Source: Microbacterium sorbitolivorans
GTDB lineage: Bacteria; Actinomycetota; Actinomycetes; Actinomycetales; Microbacteriaceae
DNA: 64,000 bases
Assembly (NCBI RefSeq): GCF_003327285.1
Contig: NZ_KZ848474.1
Coordinates: forward strand, 620,001 to 684,000
Direction of reading: 5' to 3'
Positions 14,940 to 51,737 of the stretch are shown in pieces. Positions within the stretch are counted from its first letter, which is position 1. Each line of letters opens with the position of its first letter. Made by a program: the position numbers and the translations under genes. The notes under the pieces are model-generated. The model searched no databases. It was given only the letters and a program-made list of their open reading frames with translations, and was not told where the DNA came from.

Positions 14940-15012
14940 GCGCCCGTAGCTCAATGGATAGAGCATCTGACTACGGATCAGAAGGTTAGGGGTTCGAGTC
15001 CCTTCGGGCGCA
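14940..15012 (+). tRNA. tRNA-Arg, anticodon ACG
   Basis: A full cloverleaf of 73 nt. The 7-bp acceptor stem GCGCCCG pairs with CGGGCGC, the D arm is GCTC/GAGC, the anticodon stem TCTGA/TCAGA carries loop CTACGGA with anticodon ACG, and the T arm has TTCGAGT. Discriminator A is at 15012 and CCA is not encoded. ACG is normally edited to ICG and reads CGU/CGC/CGA. Confidence 0.97.
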
Positions 15013-25694: not shown

Positions 25695-26894
25695 ATGACG
25701 ACGACCGAACCCGTGCGCACAACCACCACGCCATCGCAGGGCGGAGGGATCGGCACAGCGACCCTGATCGCACTCGCGTTGCTCGCGGCCGTTGCCCCAT
25801 TCGGCACCGACCTCTATCTCTCCGCCTTCCCCGCCATGACGAGCGACCTCGCGACGAGCGCCACCGGCGTGCAGCTCTCGCTGACCGCGTTCCTCGTGGG
25901 CGCGGGTGTCGGCCAGGTGCTTTTCGGGCCTTGGTCGGACCGCATCGGGCGCATGACGCCGCTGCTCACCGGGCTCGTGGTCTTCATCGCCGCCAGCGTT
26001 GTTGCCGTGGCGGCCGGGAGCATCGAGGTTCTCGTCATCGCCCGCCTCGCGCAGGGCCTCGGTGGCGCCGCCGGGATGGTGATCGGCCGCGCCATGATCC
26101 TCGACCGCGAATCCGGCCCGGCCGCCGCCCGTGCGCTCAACCTCATGATGATGATCGGCGGCGTCGCACCCGTCATCGCGCCCCTCACCGGAAGCCTCCT
26201 GGCCGACGCGATCGGGTGGCGCGGCCTGCTCGCGATCGTCGGAGCCCTCGGCGTGCTCTCGCTCGCCGCAACGCTCGCCTTCGTGCGCGAATCGCGACCG
26301 AAGGCGGTGCGGGTCGCCGGCACCGGCGGATCCTGGTCCGGGCTGCTCAGTCGCGGATACGTCGGCCCCGTGGTCGCCTTCGGTTTCAGCATGGCGGTCA
26401 TGATGGCCTACATCTCGGCCTCGCCGTTCGTCTATCAGGACATGATCGGGCTCTCGACGCCGATGTACGGCCTGGCGTTCGCGGTCAACGCGATCGGCCT
26501 CATCGTCGCGACGGCGATCTCGTCGCGCCTGACCCGCCGGTTCTCGATCCGCGCGCTCACGGCCGCGGGCCTCGTGATCAGCCTCGCGGCGGTGGTCGTG
26601 ATCCTCGTCCTGACGCTTACCGGCGCGCCCGCGGCGTGGCTGATGCTTCCCCTCTTCCTCGCGATCGCGCCGCTGGGCCTCGTGTTCGGCAACGCCACGG
26701 CCCTCGCCCTCTCGGCCGTTCCGCCCGCGGCGACGGGAGCCGCCTCCGCCTTCCTCGGGCTGCTGCAGTTCGTGCTCGCCGGCATCGTTGCCGCCCTCGT
26801 CGGCGACGGATCCACCCTGCCCCTTGCCCTCACGATGCTCGCCTCGGCGATCATCGCCCTGCTGGGCCTCGCGCTGGGGCGGAAGCGGGCGTAG
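25695..26894 (+). CDS. Bcr/CflA family MFS drug exporter
   Basis: A 399-residue major facilitator with about twelve membrane segments. The motif A loop reads GPWSDRIGRMTPLL after helix 2; the region FGTDLYLSAFPAM is typical of the Bcr/CflA subfamily that exports bicyclomycin, chloramphenicol or sulfonamides. No ribosome-binding site precedes the ATG, which fits the predicted leaderless start. Controlled by the divergent MarR. Ends with TAG directly followed by a repeat hairpin. Confidence 0.87.
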   Translation: MTTTEPVRTTTTPSQGGGIGTATLIALALLAAVAPFGTDLYLSAFPAMTSDLATSATGVQLSLTAFLVGAGVGQVLFGPWSDRIGRMTPLLTGLVVFIAASVVAVAAGSIEVLVIARLAQGLGGAAGMVIGRAMILDRESGPAAARALNLMMMIGGVAPVIAPLTGSLLADAIGWRGLLAIVGALGVLSLAATLAFVRESRPKAVRVAGTGGSWSGLLSRGYVGPVVAFGFSMAVMMAYISASPFVYQDMIGLSTPMYGLAFAVNAIGLIVATAISSRLTRRFSIRALTAAGLVISLAAVVVILVLTLTGAPAAWLMLPLFLAIAPLGLVFGNATALALSAVPPAATGAASAFLGLLQFVLAGIVAALVGDGSTLPLALTMLASAIIALLGLALGRKRA

Positions 26895-27028
26895 CTTCCG
26901 GTCGCACAATCTGTCCCTCCGCGGGCCGGGAGGAGCAGTTTGAGCGACTGGAGCAGCCAAGGCCGTGGTTCCGGTTCGGGAATCTGCTCTAGAAATGGCC
27001 GGGAGGAGCAGATTTCCGAACGGGAAAC
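26895..27028. repeat. Two-unit hairpin repeat array between convergent genes
   Basis: Two imperfect hairpins of about 60 bp (26895-26953 and 26968-27028), about 73 bp apart, occupy the whole gap between the exporter stop and the convergent lacI stop. Arms carry the pattern GTTCCGGT...GCTC and GAGCAG...GGAAC. Same family as the five units at 36143-36494. Probably act as bidirectional terminators or are mobile REP-like elements. Confidence 0.75.
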
Positions 27029-27030
27029 AG

Positions 27031-28071
27031 CTAGAGCGACCTCGCCGGGCCCGTTGACGCCCTCGTTACCAGGCGCGGGGTTGAATCTAGGAAGGCTCCG
27101 GCGGCGCGGCCGTCGATCGCATCGAAGAGGCGGCGGCCGACGTGGGATCCGAAGCCGATGACGTCGTGGCTCAGCGCGGTCAGGCGGGGGAAGGTGTGCT
27201 CGCAAAGCACCGAGTCGTCCCACGCGATGATCGACACGTCGTCGGGCACGCGCAGCCCGAGCTCCATCGCGACGGTGAGCCCCGCGACGGCCATGATGTC
27301 GTTGTCCGAGACGAAGGCGGTCGGCGGTTCGGGCGAGGTGAGCGCCGACCGGAAGGCCGCCGCACCCGCCTGCGCCGTGTAGTCGGTGCGCAGCATGAGC
27401 CCCTCGAGGCCGAGCTCTTGCATCTCGACGGCGTAGGCATCGTCACGGATCCGCGTGTGCGCGAGCCCCTCGGCTCCCGCGATGCGCGCGATGCGGCGGT
27501 GCCCGAGCGCCGCCAGGTATCGCACCGACTCGCGCATCGAGGTGGCGTCGTCGGTCCAGACGTTCGGCAGCCCGCCGGCGACCGACGGATCCCCCACCAC
27601 GAGCACCGGAAGCGACGAGTCTTCCTCGAACATGCGGATCCGCGGGTCGTTGTCGCGCACGTCGACGAGAACGACGCCGTCGACCCGGCGCGATCGGCGC
27701 CACCGGTCGAGCGTCGCGATCTCCTCTTCGGGCGACGGCACCACCTGCAGCAGCAGGCCGTATCCGCGCTTGGAGAGCTCCTCCTCGAGACCGAAGAGGA
27801 AGCGCATATAGAACGACTCGATACCAAGCGCCCGCGGGTCGCGCGCCAGCACCATGCCCACGACGCTCGTCGACGCCCCGGCGAGCGATCGCGCGGCGCT
27901 CGTCGGACGCCAGCCCATCTCGTCGGCGATTGCGAGCACCCGCTCGCGCGTCTCCTCGGAGACCCCCTTGCGCCCGTTCAGCGCGAACGAGACGGCGCTG
28001 ATCGACAGGCCGGCACGCTCCGCGACGTCGTTGATCGTGACGCGCTTGAGGTGGGGAACTGAGGAGGGCAC
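27031..28071 (-). CDS. LacI family transcriptional regulator, end of the mannoside operon
   Basis: A 346-residue repressor. The helix-turn-helix VTINDVAERAGLSISAVSFALN is followed by the hinge MGWRPTSAARSLAG and a sugar-binding sensor domain. GTG start at 28071. It lies 41 bp after the kinase gene and reads in the same direction, so it is the last gene of the mannoside operon; a second LacI gene is divergent at the operon head. The stop codon abuts a repeat hairpin. Confidence 0.86.
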   Translation of the reverse strand: MPSSVPHLKRVTINDVAERAGLSISAVSFALNGRKGVSEETRERVLAIADEMGWRPTSAARSLAGASTSVVGMVLARDPRALGIESFYMRFLFGLEEELSKRGYGLLLQVVPSPEEEIATLDRWRRSRRVDGVVLVDVRDNDPRIRMFEEDSSLPVLVVGDPSVAGGLPNVWTDDATSMRESVRYLAALGHRRIARIAGAEGLAHTRIRDDAYAVEMQELGLEGLMLRTDYTAQAGAAAFRSALTSPEPPTAFVSDNDIMAVAGLTVAMELGLRVPDDVSIIAWDDSVLCEHTFPRLTALSHDVIGFGSHVGRRLFDAIDGRAAGAFLDSTPRLVTRASTGPARSL

Positions 28072-32508: not shown

Positions 32509-33464
32509 GTCAGGTCGACCTTCTCGTCGGGGAAGAACTTGCGCTGGAGCCACGTGACGATCAGTACGATGGCGAGGAGGATGACGGCCATCGCCGACGC
32601 GAGCCCGACCTGCCGGAACTGGAACGCCGTCTGCACCGTCTGGATCACGAAGGTCGACGTGCCGTTGGCGCCCGACGTCATGATGTAGGGGATCTCGAAG
32701 ACCGACAGGCTGCCCGAGATCGCGAGGATGAACGAGAGCCCGATGATGCGGCGGATGCCCGGGAAGATGATGAAGCGGAACTGCGCCCACTTGCCGGCGC
32801 CGTCGAGCTCGGCCGCCTCATACAGCTCGGACGGGATCGACTGGATCGCGCCCAGGAACAGCACGAAGTTGAGGCCCGTGTAGCGCCAGACCGACGTCGA
32901 CGCGAGCGAGAAGTTCGCGATCGACGAGTCGCCGAGCCACTGCGGCGGATCCGCGAGCCCGAACCAGCCGAGCACGGTGTCGAGCGTGCCGCCGGGCTGG
33001 AACAGGTAGAGGAAGACGAAGCCGATGGCGACGCCGTTGATGAGGTACGGGAAGAAGAGGATTCCGCGGAAGAAGTTCGAAAAGCGCGTCGAGAAGCTGA
33101 GGAGCGCCGCGAAGTAGAGCGCGATCGCCATCTGCACGAACGAGGCGACGAAGTAGTACAGGCTCACCCCGAACACCGCGAAGATCTTCGGGTTCGTGAA
33201 GACCTCGATGTAGTTATCGAGGCCGACGAAGTCGTCGACCTTGCCGAAACCGGTCCAGTTGTTGAGGCTGTACCAGATCATGTTGGCGGCCGGCGCGTAG
33301 GTCAGCAGCATGAGCAGACCGACCGCGACCGCCACGAAGAGGTACGGCGTGAGGGCCGTCAGCAGCTGGCGCCCCGAGGCCGTGCCCCGGTGGGGTCGTC
33401 GGCCGCGACCGCCCGTCGTGAGGGTGACCGTGGCGTCTTCGCTCACGGCTGGGGGTGTGCTCAT
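32505..33464 (-). CDS. Sugar ABC transporter permease, MalF-like (mannoside locus)
   Basis: A 319-residue CUT1 permease with about six membrane segments after a basic cytoplasmic tail. EAA loop: YEAAELDGAGKWAQFRFIIFP. Start at 33464 is supported by AGGAGA 6 nt upstream. It is separated from the binding-protein gene by 133 bp that contain a strong hairpin and four phased GGATCC words. Confidence 0.88.
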   Translation of the reverse strand: MSTPPAVSEDATVTLTTGGRGRRPHRGTASGRQLLTALTPYLFVAVAVGLLMLLTYAPAANMIWYSLNNWTGFGKVDDFVGLDNYIEVFTNPKIFAVFGVSLYYFVASFVQMAIALYFAALLSFSTRFSNFFRGILFFPYLINGVAIGFVFLYLFQPGGTLDTVLGWFGLADPPQWLGDSSIANFSLASTSVWRYTGLNFVLFLGAIQSIPSELYEAAELDGAGKWAQFRFIIFPGIRRIIGLSFILAISGSLSVFEIPYIMTSGANGTSTFVIQTVQTAFQFRQVGLASAMAVILLAIVLIVTWLQRKFFPDEKVDLT

Positions 33465-35129: not shown

Positions 35130-35146
35130 ACACAAGGGAGTTGCTC

Positions 35147-36154
35147 GTGACCATCCACCAACGCGCGACGTTGCAGGACGTCGGACGGCTCGCCGGAGTG
35201 AGCCCGAAGACCGTCTCGCGCGTCTTCAATCACCGCGACCAGGTCGCGCCCGAGACCGTCGAAATCGTGCTCGCGGCGGCGAAGCGCCTGCGGTTCCGGC
35301 CGAACACGCTCGCGCGCGGGCTGCGCCGCGGCGGCACCAACACCGTCGGCTTCATGATGGGCGAGCTCGGCAACCCGTTCTATTACAAGATCGCCGAGGG
35401 CATGGAGCGCGAGCTCGCCGGACACGGGTACGCCCTCATCGTCGCGACAACCGACGACACCGCCGAGGGCGAACAGCGGGTCGCCGACGCGCTGCTCGCC
35501 CAGCGGATCGGAGCCCTCGTGCTCGTGCCCGCGTCGCCCGACCAGTCGCACCTCGAGGGCGAGCGCCAACTCGGCACCCCGATCATCGCGATCGACCGGC
35601 CGGCGCGAAACGTCGTCGCCGACTCGATCGTGCTCGACAACAGGTTCGGCACCGAGGAGGCCACGCGGCGCCTGCTCGCCCGCGGCCATCGGCGCATCGC
35701 CTACGCCTGCAGCCCCGCGTCGGTCTACTCGCAGGCCGAGCGCATCGCGGGCTATCGCGCCGCGATGGCGTCGGCCGGCGTGACCGACACCTCGGCGTGG
35801 GAGCGCCTCGAGGATGACCGCACGGTGTCGCTCGAGCGCATCGTCGGATCGCTCCTGGACGCGCCCGAGCCGCCGACCGCCCTCATCTGCGGCAACAACC
35901 GCATGACGATCGGGGCGCTCCGCGCCCTCCGCGGGCGCCACGACGACCACACCGCACTCGTCGGATTCGACGACTTCGACACCGCCGACGTCATCGGCGT
36001 CACCGCGATCACCTACGACCCGGTAGAGGTGGGCCGCCGCGCGGCCCGCCTCGCCCTCGCCCGCATCGCGGATCCATCGGGCTTCAGCCAGCAAATCACG
36101 ATGCCCACCTGGATCGTCGAGCGCGGCACGGGTGAGCGCCCCGTTCCGGTTTGA
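35147..36154 (+). CDS. LacI family transcriptional regulator, divergent from the mannoside operon
   Basis: A 335-residue repressor. Helix-turn-helix LQDVGRLAGVSPKTVSRVFN, hinge LRFRPNTLARGLRRGG, then the sensor domain. GTG at 35147 is preferred over TTG at 35141 because GGGAG ends 6 nt upstream. The final codons (RPVPV, stop) are formed by the left arm of a repeat hairpin, so the element has created or overwritten the C-terminus. Likely controls the divergent mannoside operon. Confidence 0.87.
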   Translation: MTIHQRATLQDVGRLAGVSPKTVSRVFNHRDQVAPETVEIVLAAAKRLRFRPNTLARGLRRGGTNTVGFMMGELGNPFYYKIAEGMERELAGHGYALIVATTDDTAEGEQRVADALLAQRIGALVLVPASPDQSHLEGERQLGTPIIAIDRPARNVVADSIVLDNRFGTEEATRRLLARGHRRIAYACSPASVYSQAERIAGYRAAMASAGVTDTSAWERLEDDRTVSLERIVGSLLDAPEPPTALICGNNRMTIGALRALRGRHDDHTALVGFDDFDTADVIGVTAITYDPVEVGRRAARLALARIADPSGFSQQITMPTWIVERGTGERPVPV

Positions 36155-36494
36155 GAATCGGTCCCTTATCGGCTGGGGAGGAGCAGTTTCCCAAACGGGA
36201 ACCTTGGGCGGCCGGGTTCCGGTTTGGAAATCTGCTGTTCGTTGGTGTGGGAGCAGCAGTTATCCGAACGGGAGCGTGGGGTGTCCGGTTCCGGTTTGAG
36301 AATCGGTCCTTTGCCGGCTGGGGAAGAGCAGTTTTTCGAATGGGAACCTTGGCTGCCCGGGTTCCGGTCGCGCAATCGGTCGTTCCGGTACCCCGGGAGC
36401 AGCCGTTTGCGCGACGGGAGCGTCTCGCGTCCGGTTCCGGCCGCCCAATCGGTCATTCCGGCACCCCCGGAGCAGCAGATTGAGCGACCGGAAC
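36143..36494. repeat. Five tandem hairpin units, 72-73 bp period, between convergent genes
   Basis: Units at 36143-36202, 36216-36275, 36288-36347, 36361-36421 and 36434-36494, with 12-13-bp linkers. Each is an imperfect palindrome: left arm GTTCCGG..., right arm ...AGCAG...CGGGAAC. The arms vary between units but stay complementary, e.g. GGTCGCGCAA with TTGCGCGAC in unit 4 and GGTTTGAGAA with TTCCCAAAC in unit 1. The array runs from inside the lacI stop region to the stop codon of the histidine kinase. Confidence 0.85.
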
Positions 36495-37924
36495 TAGGGG
36501 GTGGACAGCGGCAGCGCCACCGTGAAGCTAGCCCCGCCGGTGTCGCTCGACACCTCGACGGTGCCGCCGTGGGCCTGCACGATCGCGGAGACGATCGAGA
36601 GGCCGAGGCCGGCGCCGCCGGAGGCGCGGTCGCGGGCGGATCCGCCGCGTGCGAAGCGGTCGAACAGGCGCGGCAGCACGTCGGGCGCGATGCCGGGGCC
36701 CTCGTCGGCGACGGTGATGCGGGCGTGGGTGTCGTCGTGGGTGACGCTCGTCGTCACGCGGGTTCCGGGCGGGGTGTGCATGCGCGCGTTGCCGAGGAGG
36801 TTGATGACGACCTGACGGATCCGCCCCGGGTCGCCGACGATCTCGACGGCCTCGTCGACCTCGACGAGCCACTCGCGGGTTGGATCCGCGGCGTGCGCGT
36901 CGTCGACGCTCTCGATCGCGATGAGCGCGAGGTCGACGGGTTCGTGCCGCAGCTCCTGGCCGGCGTCGAGGCGGGCGAGCAGCAGCAGGTCGTCGACGAG
37001 GCGGCCCATACGTTCGGCCTCCGACTCGATGCGGTCGAGCGACCGTGCCGGATCCGCGCCGTCGGCGAGCGCGAGCTGCGCGTATCCGCGGATCGACGCG
37101 AGCGGCGTGCGTAGCTCGTGGCTGGCGTCGGCGATGAACGCGCGCAGGCGATCCTCGCTCTCCTGGCGCGCGCCGAGCGCGTCTTCGACGTTGGTGAGCA
37201 GGGCGTCGAGCGCGGCGCCCACCCGCCCGACCTCCGTGCGCGGATCATCGGCGAGCTCGACGCGCTCGGGGAGCGTCACGGCACCCTCGGCGAGCGAGCG
37301 CTGCGAGACGCGCTCGGCGGTGTCGGCGATGCGCCGCAGCGGGTGGGTCAGCGTGCTGACGAGCAGCGCGATTCCGGCGGCGGCGATGATGATCGCGGTG
37401 AGGGTGACGGCGCCGAGAATCGCGCCGAGCGAGGTGAGGGTCGCCGTGACGTCGCGCGTCGACTTTCCCGACACCACGACGCTGTCGTCGACGGTGCGGT
37501 CGGCGACGCGGAAGGATCCGATGGTGCCGCCGAGGTCGACGGTAACGGGCTCGGTCGTCGATTCGACGGCGTCCCAGAGCGTCTGATGCTGCGTCGCGGT
37601 GAGCGAGACGGCGTCGCCGTCGGGGCCGACGTACGACGAGCTGATGACGGATCCGTCGCTGCCGAACACGACGCTCAGCGTATCGATGCGGGGCCGGGGA
37701 CCGGATCCGGAGGGTGCGTCGGAGCCGGGACCTCCGGGGCCGGGTTTGACCGCGAGGTCGAGCCCCACCTGCACGTCTTGGTTGAGGCGTTCGTCGAGCG
37801 AGGCGCGTAGCGCGAAGACCGTCGCGGCCGCCGAGAGCAGCAGCGTGACGAGCACGAGCAGGGTGACGCCGACGATGAGCCGGCGGCGCAGCGGCCAGCG
37901 GCGGATCGCGCCCGCCAGGCTCAC
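36494..37924 (-). CDS. Sensor histidine kinase
   Basis: A 476-residue membrane kinase. Membrane segments at about 13-38 and 165-190 flank an extracellular sensor of about 125 residues that is Gly/Pro-rich near 60-78. HAMP follows, then the phospho-acceptor His269 in ASHELRTPLAS, an N box (INLLGNARMHTPPG), G1 (DEGPGIAPD) and G2 (GGAGLGLSIV). Complete. GTG start overlaps the response regulator stop by GTGA. Divergent from the DUF3500 lipoprotein gene, a likely target. Confidence 0.9.
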   Translation of the reverse strand: MSLAGAIRRWPLRRRLIVGVTLLVLVTLLLSAAATVFALRASLDERLNQDVQVGLDLAVKPGPGGPGSDAPSGSGPRPRIDTLSVVFGSDGSVISSSYVGPDGDAVSLTATQHQTLWDAVESTTEPVTVDLGGTIGSFRVADRTVDDSVVVSGKSTRDVTATLTSLGAILGAVTLTAIIIAAAGIALLVSTLTHPLRRIADTAERVSQRSLAEGAVTLPERVELADDPRTEVGRVGAALDALLTNVEDALGARQESEDRLRAFIADASHELRTPLASIRGYAQLALADGADPARSLDRIESEAERMGRLVDDLLLLARLDAGQELRHEPVDLALIAIESVDDAHAADPTREWLVEVDEAVEIVGDPGRIRQVVINLLGNARMHTPPGTRVTTSVTHDDTHARITVADEGPGIAPDVLPRLFDRFARGGSARDRASGGAGLGLSIVSAIVQAHGGTVEVSSDTGGASFTVALPLSTP

Positions 37925-50045: not shown

Positions 50046-51737
50046 TTACGACTCGTCGGCCTCGGGGGACGCGGTCACTTCGGCGCCGGGCGCTCGAGTT
50101 GTCGCCGTGTCACCCGAGAGCGTCTGCGAGATCGAGTCGGCCTCGCTCTGGAGCGTGTCGGCGTCGATCAGGTCGCTCGCCTGCTCGGAGAGCAGGTCGA
50201 CGAGCTCGTCGAGGTATGCCTGTGCGTCGCCGCTGTCGTAGATCGACTCGGTGAGGTCGGCGAGCGAGTCGTTGTACAGCTGCGTGAAGTCGTCGTTCTC
50301 GAGGAAGCGCGACGACAGCGTGTTGTTGCCGCCCATCATGCCGCCGCCCTGGCCCATATTGCCCTGGCCCATGCCGCCGGGGCCGCGGGTCGTCTGGCCG
50401 TCGCCATTCGTCTCGGTGTCGCCCTGCGGCATGTCGTCGGGCATTTCCATGCCCTCGGGGAAATCCATGCCCTCGGGCATCTCCGCACCGTCCGGTAGCT
50501 CCATGCCCTCGGGCATTTCGGGGGCGTTTCCGTCGCCCTGCTGGCCGAAGTCTCCGCCGCCGCCACCGGGGGCGAAGCCTCCGCCGCCGCCCATGCCGCC
50601 GTATGACAGGTTCTGATCCCACGCGACGACCGTCATGAGGCCGGTGTCGGGGTCGTAGTGGAGGTACGAGTTATTGCCGGGGCCGTCGATGTCGTCGGTG
50701 TTGGCGACGAGGTCCTGCACCGCGAGGTAGTCGGCGAACGAGTCGACGTCGAGGTAATCGGAGAGCTGCTCGGCGAACTCCTCGTCGGTCGAGTTGTTGA
50801 TGAAGTCGAGGAACTCGATGAGCGGCGCATACTCCTCATCTTCGGAGAGGCCGTCGGCGTCGTACTTGACGTCAAACGCGTCGGTGTACTCGGTGTAGTC
50901 GTCGCCGCGGTACGAGTAGTCGCCCGACGCATCGGCCTTGTAGGTGATGCCGGTGCCGCCGAACTCGTCTTCGTTCCACGCGTCGTCGTCGGGTAGATCG
51001 AGCACGAGGCGAAGCTGCTCGTCGCCACCGTTGACACTGAGCCGCACGTATGCGGCCTCCTCGGCGGCGACACCCGCCTCGTCGAGCACCTGAAGAGCGA
51101 CGGCCTCGTTGAGCGACGACTCGGTGTTGTTGCCGCGCACGACGAAGTCGGAGCGGCCGGAGTACTGCTGCCCGTCGACATACTTGTCGAGGCGGATCAG
51201 CCACGGGAGCGAGGCCGGGTCATCGGCGGTTCCGTCGCCGTCACCCTCGTCGAACGTCGGCTCGTCCGGGGCCGCGCTCTCGGCGGTGTCGTCTTCCGAC
51301 GTGGTGTCGTCTTCCGTCGCGGTGTCGTCTTCAGACGTCGCCTCGTCGTCGGTGGTCGATGTGGCCGGTGCGTCCTGGCCACCGGTCGTGCCCCCGATGC
51401 CGCGCAGACTCGAGTTGCCCTTGAGGCGCAGGCCCACGTTCTCGAAGGTCTCGCCGTCGATCGTGACGGTCGCGCTCATCCAGTCCTTATCCCCGCTCTC
51501 GGCGTAGGTCGCGAGCATCGCCCGGTAGTCGGCATCGTCGAACTCCACCGAGACGGTGTGCACTTCGTCCGCCGAGAAGAACGCCGATTCGGTGCCGGAG
51601 GCGGACGCCGACTCTCCGATGGTCGTGCAACCTGCGGCGACAAGGGCGACAGCCGCGAGGCTGGCGGTGACGGCGGTGACGCGGGGCGCGCGGGCCGGCG
51701 TCAGGAAGTGCTTGCGTGAGGATTCGGATGGGGTCAT
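50046..51737 (-). CDS. CotH-family kinase lipoprotein with acidic and Met/Gly-rich repeats
   Basis: A 563-residue protein. Signal peptide with lipobox Cys37 (LVAAGC). CotH fold: RLKGNSS near 104-110, WLIRLDKYVDGQQY, SSLNEAVALQVLDEAG, NNSYLHYD and WDQN (Asp374), the atypical-kinase residues known from spore-coat CotH. Two low-complexity insertions: a Glu/Asp/Thr tract with EDDT repeats (about 128-178) and a Gly/Met/Pro segment (381-470) with four MPEGM/FPEGM-like units. CotH proteins occur with DUF3500 and polyphosphate genes in actinobacteria. ATG at 51737 is preferred as the signal peptide start. Confidence 0.85.
   Translation of the reverse strand: MTPSESSRKHFLTPARAPRVTAVTASLAAVALVAAGCTTIGESASASGTESAFFSADEVHTVSVEFDDADYRAMLATYAESGDKDWMSATVTIDGETFENVGLRLKGNSSLRGIGGTTGGQDAPATSTTDDEATSEDDTATEDDTTSEDDTAESAAPDEPTFDEGDGDGTADDPASLPWLIRLDKYVDGQQYSGRSDFVVRGNNTESSLNEAVALQVLDEAGVAAEEAAYVRLSVNGGDEQLRLVLDLPDDDAWNEDEFGGTGITYKADASGDYSYRGDDYTEYTDAFDVKYDADGLSEDEEYAPLIEFLDFINNSTDEEFAEQLSDYLDVDSFADYLAVQDLVANTDDIDGPGNNSYLHYDPDTGLMTVVAWDQNLSYGGMGGGGGFAPGGGGGDFGQQGDGNAPEMPEGMELPDGAEMPEGMDFPEGMEMPDDMPQGDTETNGDGQTTRGPGGMGQGNMGQGGGMMGGNNTLSSRFLENDDFTQLYNDSLADLTESIYDSGDAQAYLDELVDLLSEQASDLIDADTLQSEADSISQTLSGDTATTRAPGAEVTASPEADES

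Follow-up and report, generated by a model that had tools for sequence, protein, structure and literature searches.

The Noc and SlmA sites of nucleoid occlusion, whose proteins inhibit FtsZ assembly, are spread over the chromosome and are thin or absent near the terminus; matS/MatP marks the terminus domain. The F plasmid sopC consists of tandem centromere repeats with a 43-bp period, and the integron attC sites, which go with an IntI integrase, have the core RYYYAAC..GTTRRRY. The window considered here is a whole stretch of 64,000 nucleotides from Microbacterium sorbitolivorans (contig NZ_KZ848474.1, positions 620,001 to 684,000); it contains an array of five palindromes from a dispersed family, which has something in common with each of these systems.

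As with Noc and SlmA, dozens of short palindromic sites are scattered over the chromosome and become thin near the terminus (31, 18, 3 and 0 units in the quarters from origin to terminus, eight genomes taken together), the exceptions to terminus avoidance being the genome G106 and possibly the unit on contig C1 of M. sorbitolivorans itself; the differences are the half-site of about 20 bp, the helical arrays, the location behind genes, and a protein that is only putative. The confinement of a site family to one chromosomal domain recalls matS/MatP, but the Microbacterium sites are longer and mark the opposite half. Repetition in direct orientation with a step of some four turns of the helix (41-42 bp here) is shared with sopC, although in Microbacterium the sites are dispersed over up to ~1.5 Mb of the chromosome and do not form one cluster. 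Imperfect palindromes behind genes, with the outer part better conserved than the inner one, are also typical of attC; here the core, as read, is another one, and the genes on either side of the units are for the most part convergent or belong to operons, with ordinary functions. Finally, extragenic palindromes, regular two-type mosaic arrays and proximity to gene 3' ends are common to our family and REP/BIME sequences. The family does not fit the tag, length and transposase of REP/BIME as described in the consulted parts of PMC3733652 (which give a REP unit length of 20-40 bp) and PMC2817692: its dyad is 57 bp long, the GTAG/CGTC tag is missing, its own genome has no RAYT gene, and the units are origin-biased with helical spacing of half-sites. 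No published description of this repeat family was found in the open-licence literature at listing level.

The array and its family

The five-unit array (36142-36495) fills the convergent gap between a lacI-family gene and a sensor histidine kinase gene (Table 1). Its imperfect palindromes start at intervals of 73, 72, 73 and 73 bp, TRF reports a 73-bp tandem array over 36143-36368, and the predicted fold of the block 36130-36510 is better than that of every one of 100 dinucleotide shuffles (z -6.95); when the units are folded singly on the plus strand, z is from -3.35 to -7.45 for units 2-5, and unit 1 folds weakly (z -1.24). The spacings, TRF and the shuffle test thus bear out the preliminary description, which proposed five units with a period of ~73 bp. 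It also correctly connected the stop codons with the outer arms, as the lacI stop codon (36152-36154) is inside the first arm and that of the kinase (36494-36496, minus strand) touches the last one. Its distinction of two arm types stands as well, but the CGCG type comprises units 4 and 5, not unit 4 alone. An MFS gene and a lacI-family gene converge on the second array, which consists of two units (26894-27028) and fills the gap. The Rfam scan of the window gave no match at the arrays, its single match being a tRNA (14940-15012). Elsewhere in the window, 18-bp tandem repeats occur at 50437-50516 (4.4 copies) and 51285-51338 (3.0 copies).

Table 1. Units of the two arrays and the genes next to them (window positions)
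Feature	Position	Strand	Remarks
Unit 1, type A	36142..36203	+	arms TCCGGTTTGAGAATC.. / reverse ..CAAACGGGA; contains lacI stop codon
Unit 2, type A	36215..36276	+	
Unit 3, type A	36287..36348	+	
Unit 4, type B (CGCG arms)	36360..36422	+	
Unit 5, type B	36433..36495	+	end touches kinase stop codon
Second-array unit, type B	26894..26955	+	
Second-array unit, type A	26967..27028	+	
lacI-family regulator upstream of the five-unit array, ordinary neighbour	35141..36154	+	PF00356, PF00532 (scanned protein from 35147)
Sensor histidine kinase, convergent ordinary neighbour	36494..37924	-	PF02518, PF00512
MFS transporter preceding the second array, ordinary neighbour	25695..26894	+	PF07690
lacI-family regulator, convergent neighbour of the second array	27031..28071	-	

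With the array as a query, blastn produced 48 alignments in its own genome (E up to 1), and a covariance model built from the five window units produced 92 rows, in which most units are matched on both strands. The covariance search scored the best 150 of 842 first-look candidates, so further units may be missed. At least 48 units are present at 17 places: 33 units on contig C2 (nine places), 13 on C3 (six places), and one each on C6 and C1 (one place each); a very weak match at window position 32912 (E 0.41) was left out of this count, and the C1 match at 394.8 kb (E 0.02) proved to be a clear type B unit when read. The longest arrays have nine (L010) and eight (L009) units. Spacing within arrays is mostly 72-73 bp, with 63 (twice), 69, 71, 74 and one case of 127 bp. 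The 47 aligned units divide into 19 of type A (TCCGGTTYGGGAATCTGCTC-like arm) and 28 of type B (TCCGGTCGCGCAATCTGCTC-like arm), which can be mixed in one array (B-A-A-B-B-A-A-B-B in L010). The type is the same on both sides in 47/47 units, a count that may be inflated because the search model favours pairing arms, and each of these 47 units has an outer span of 56-57 bp. The genes flanking the arrays are ordinary and unlike each other (20 proteins scanned), which rules out a shared function of the neighbours. A blastn comparison of the window array with plasmids gave zero matches. Two stretches of unusual composition were noted in passing: G000:C1:495001-503000 (L262) has a G+C of 0.595 against ~0.69 and little called coding, and is perhaps an island or prophage; the contig end G000:C2:1-8000 (L271) has a G+C of 0.567 and zero called high-GC3 genes.

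A pattern scan of genome contigs gave at least 116 stretches. The 80 matches listed are nearly all from Microbacterium; among them are a few from other Microbacteriaceae (Mycetocola, PS02344), and the Amycolatopsis and Micromonospora rows are apparently due to chance. Of the 149 genus genomes, 29 contain the pattern TCCGGTCGC N37-41 GCGACCGGA, with 1 to 33 copies in each, a few exact matches being chance ones (e.g., G014:C1:439133), and the reversed pattern has zero matches in the same 149 genomes. The units are thus by no means confined to the window. At the same time, a universal feature of the genus is rejected, since a comparable family is lacking in 400 kb of G004, read irrespective of where its origin is. 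A virus-borne element is ruled out, too: none of the four pattern matches in viral contigs is palindromic (11-13 of 22 pairs).

The outer part of the arm stays and the inner part varies by genome (GATATGACAGCC, AGTTCCTGCCGC, GCAAAAGCACCTT, GAACCTGGTCGCGA, AATTTCTCCCGC and others). At one orthologous intergenic site the unit is kept in eight genomes with differing inner arms, these loci having been chosen through having a unit. In another group of loci, read by eye, the unit lies between the genes of a sugar-binding protein and a permease. Locus L055 contains two GGGAGCGCTCCC palindromes (2936-2987) at a distance of 24 nt, a pair which presumably resembles a double LacI-family operator.

Half-sites, gene ends and the origin

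Same-orientation half-sites in the loci of relatives are separated by distances that peak at 31, 41-42, 62 and 83-84 bp. In a scan of periods from 8.5 to 14 bp the best one is ~10.5 bp (R 0.42, none of 5000 jittered sets being as strong) for n=166 distances, which come partly from related copies, the related loci not being fully independent. The exact half-site search found 50 sites in G022, 14 in G005 and one in G106, with zero matches of the reversed pattern in these three genomes. In G022 and G005, neighbouring sites on the same strand are in all 13 cases separated by 31-32, 41-42 or 83-84 bp, i.e., by distances deviating at most 1 bp from multiples of 10.5; at G022:607500-607602 three half-sites form a direct tandem with a step of 42 bp. 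Extra half-sites outside the units of relatives mostly point inward (27 left-type upstream and 17 right-type downstream, vs 4 and 2 the other way). The reversed-arm control for them is not clean (13 matches vs 50, ten of one kind), and for this reason the half-site claim rests on the periodicity and the exact-site searches. The inverted spacing of 57 bp is partly imposed by the search pattern; in the loci of relatives it is accompanied by spacings of 45, 88 and 99 bp. The 15 pairs at 45-46 bp form a second inverted class, one helical turn below the common 57 bp.

The gene context was determined with our own simple gene caller for 97 units at 78 named loci of relatives: the flanking genes are convergent for 30 units, tandem for 48 and divergent for 3, another 9 units are at locus ends, and the placement is extragenic in that only 7 overlap a called gene. 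Gaps of at least 60 bp in the same loci number 61, 129 and 51, respectively. Divergent gaps are depleted of units (3/81 units vs 51/241 gaps, p 1e-4), and convergent gaps are slightly enriched (p 0.047). Among the tandem-gene units, 27 of 48 begin at a distance of 6-25 nt from the stop codon of the preceding gene. The view of the preliminary description that this is a REP-like family is supported by such dispersed extragenic palindromes preferring the 3' sides of genes.

The dnaA gene was placed in the own genome and in 20 others. The origin count covers eight genomes in which a single, nearly complete chromosome contig carries the units (G001, G005, G021, G022, G034, G094, G106 and G149), genomes in many contigs being outside it. 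In these eight, 49 of 52 units are in the origin-proximal half (31, 18, 3 and 0 by quarter), and the proportion is 40/43 if each cluster is counted once. Two pattern matches with little or no palindromic symmetry are not among the 52; if they are included, the result is 50/54, and one of the two, G005:470269, is in the last quarter. Of the three units in the terminus half, two belong to G106 (-1.40 and -1.35 Mb). In G022, the origin half contains 48 of 50 exact single half-sites. Sampled stretches of this genome were scanned with a half-site matrix (at least 18 bits). The 200 kb selected for their known units yielded 50 sites, another 200 kb on the origin side, deliberately placed clear of such units, yielded 0, and 300 kb of the terminus side yielded 1; the density of ordinary palindromes is even over these stretches (12.0, 10.5 and 10.7 per 100 kb), and half-sites of intermediate score are few. 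No replichore strand bias of the half-sites was observed (14+/11- and 16+/9-).

In M. sorbitolivorans, dnaA is at C2:441 kb, and C1, which makes up 39% of the genome, has one of the 17 places. In the gene-strand samples of C1, the coding bases amount to 47,946 on the plus vs 15,585 on the minus strand at 0-413 kb, 13,418 vs 23,014 at 450-683 kb, and, the opposite way again, 15,361 vs 11,766 at 720-863 kb, with 863-1193 kb being outside the sample. The strand switch near 405-450 kb hints that C1 may hold the terminus, the signal being mixed. If it does, the type B unit of C1 counts against a strict origin rule, since it would be near the terminus.

The proposed reading and its rivals

The reading we prefer, with a probability of about 0.42, is that the array would be one cluster of genome-wide double-stranded sites for a putative sequence-specific DNA-binding protein marking or organising the origin half of the chromosome. 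The dispersion, the half-site anatomy, the spacing, the 3' placement and the origin bias in eight genomes are observations; cooperative binding by the putative protein and its task in the origin half are what we infer. The element is a half-site of ~20 bp composed of the conserved TCCGGTCGC and a species-varying inner part. Half-sites are arranged mostly as inverted pairs of 56-58 bp, but also in tandem, spaced by whole helical turns, and the putative protein would bind them as double-stranded DNA, cooperatively along one face of the helix. The sites are found downstream of genes and clear of promoters, predominantly in the origin-proximal half; the task of the protein may be to mark, condense or position this half, or to keep the septum off it. 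The occurrence of the motif in only 29/149 genus genomes counts against this reading, as do the genomes with a single copy, because one copy is too few for a chromosome-wide task, the 400 kb of G004 with no comparable family, the three of 52 units in the terminus half, and the partial origin of the helical spacings from related copies. The strict 47/47 arm matching also counts against it, because a hairpin constraint would give the same. The wider proposal, that of an undescribed actinobacterial chromosome-domain system with a dedicated putative protein, a fast-evolving two-part half-site of ~20 bp, and inverted and tandem sites in helical phase at positions sheltered from transcription, serving nucleoid occlusion or origin-domain organisation, seems to us rather doubtful.

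The main rival is a REP/BIME-like mosaic repeat, i.e., non-autonomous mobile or gene-converting palindromes without a host function, whose transposase is lost or of another kind; we regard it as quite possible, if less so. It would account for the dispersed extragenic location, for the mixing of two types in arrays (as in L010), and for variable copy number and patchy occurrence with single copies in several genomes. Relatives also differ in having one gene flanked by units versus a single unit (L109, 3705-3761, vs L114, 4209-5408, L129, 5096-6268, and L139, 3726-5046; L069, 6683-6739, vs L138, 4623-5661), and homologous recombination between repeats would explain such differences. L118 lacks the unit that L111 and L137 carry, but it has no tidy junction, so it is not a clean empty site. 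Signs of mobility were sought with the following results. The Y1 transposase profile PF01797, positive in 10 of 14 control genomes, has 0 matches in the own genome; it is found in one of 149 genus genomes (G064:C15:20980-21342, L179), and that genome is without units by the pattern. A RAYT-driven REP is thus ruled out, which settles in the negative the earlier suggestion to look for a RAYT (TnpA-REP) gene. The absence of RAYT is nevertheless not decisive for the rival as a whole, because the CGTC-type REPs are said, in the parts of PMC3733652 consulted, to lack a dedicated transposase. The GTAG tag is near 3/47 own units and 1/97 units of relatives, and the CGTC tag near 4/47 and 15/97. Direct repeats of at least 4 nt flank 13/97 units vs 7-10/97 at shifted controls, with 10, 9 and 9/97 among these; as this is not above the controls, a target-site duplication like that of a TIR element or MITE is rejected. 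Thus neither a Y1 transposase, nor an end tag, nor a target duplication supports mobility above controls. The conserved location of the unit between the same genes in eight genomes (chosen for unit presence), the few intermediate-score sites in G022, the origin bias and the lack of a replichore strand bias also speak against this rival.

Alternatively, the same putative protein could halt RNA polymerase at gene ends, so that the sites would be protein-bound transcription roadblocks or terminators. The start of 27/48 tandem-gene units 6-25 nt past the stop codon, the somewhat enriched convergent and depleted divergent gaps, and the helical site spacing agree with this; but the origin bias would be left unexplained, and the genes flanking the own arrays share no function. 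We consider such a role improbable.

Still less probable, in our opinion, are RNA-level hairpins with a conserved fold, acting as bidirectional terminators or 3' mRNA stabilisers. The predicted folds are stable and lie behind stop codons, at one orthologous site the inner stems are complementary in spite of their differences from genome to genome, and the arm type is matched in the own genome (47/47). However, selection at the RNA level would favour G-T pairs, and their excess is absent: on the transcript strand, the stems of the 48 units between tandem genes have 33 G-T vs 44 A-C, and close behind the stop codon the trend is reversed if anything (16 vs 30). The sense strand is favoured by the predicted folding energy in only 20 of these 48 units. 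The identity of arms within the same unit does not exceed that across units in G014 (0.670/0.652, permutation p 0.25), G022 (0.662/0.673, p 0.76), G139 (0.671/0.687, p 0.83), or in the own genome for type A (0.754/0.747, p 0.37) and type B (0.700/0.685, p 0.19), i.e., there is no unit-specific covariation within these genomes or subtypes. In G014, two different half-site types are combined in 7 of the 21 units, and a further unit could be classified only in part. We presume that the arms are complementary because both follow one site consensus, being copies of the same site. Hence the RNA fold as the conserved feature is rejected for the lack of a G-U bias and of unit-specific covariation, and two points of the preliminary description are not supported. 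The first is that the fold is conserved more than the sequence: the types match in 47/47 units, yet no excess of compensatory changes was found inside either subtype. The second is the terminator or RNA-element reading, to which the direct-only half-site tandems, the helical spacing and the origin bias are also opposed. Judged from sequence, the flat covariation, the absent G-U bias, the direct tandems and the helical spacing are the properties of predicted double-stranded protein-binding sites.

As to attC-like recombination sites moving single genes, the differences by one unit-flanked gene (L109 vs L114/L129/L139 and L069 vs L138) could be read in this way, but the end motif GTTCCGG..CCGGAAC, as read, does not seem to fit the attC core, convergent genes of an ordinary kind flank many of the units, and homologous recombination between repeats would explain the gene differences, so we attach very little credence to it.

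Significance

If the family is a set of protein-binding sites, as we prefer to think, these sites in the origin half would serve as bait for isolating a protein with a possible Noc/SlmA-like role. Such a bait matters because Actinobacteria such as C. glutamicum are described, in the part of PMC3566199 consulted, as having no Noc and SlmA homologues. The half-site with a species-varying inner and a constant outer part would provide a natural series for studying the joint change of a protein and its site. Even if the family is a mobile repeat, its avoidance of the terminus half and its helical spacing need an explanation.
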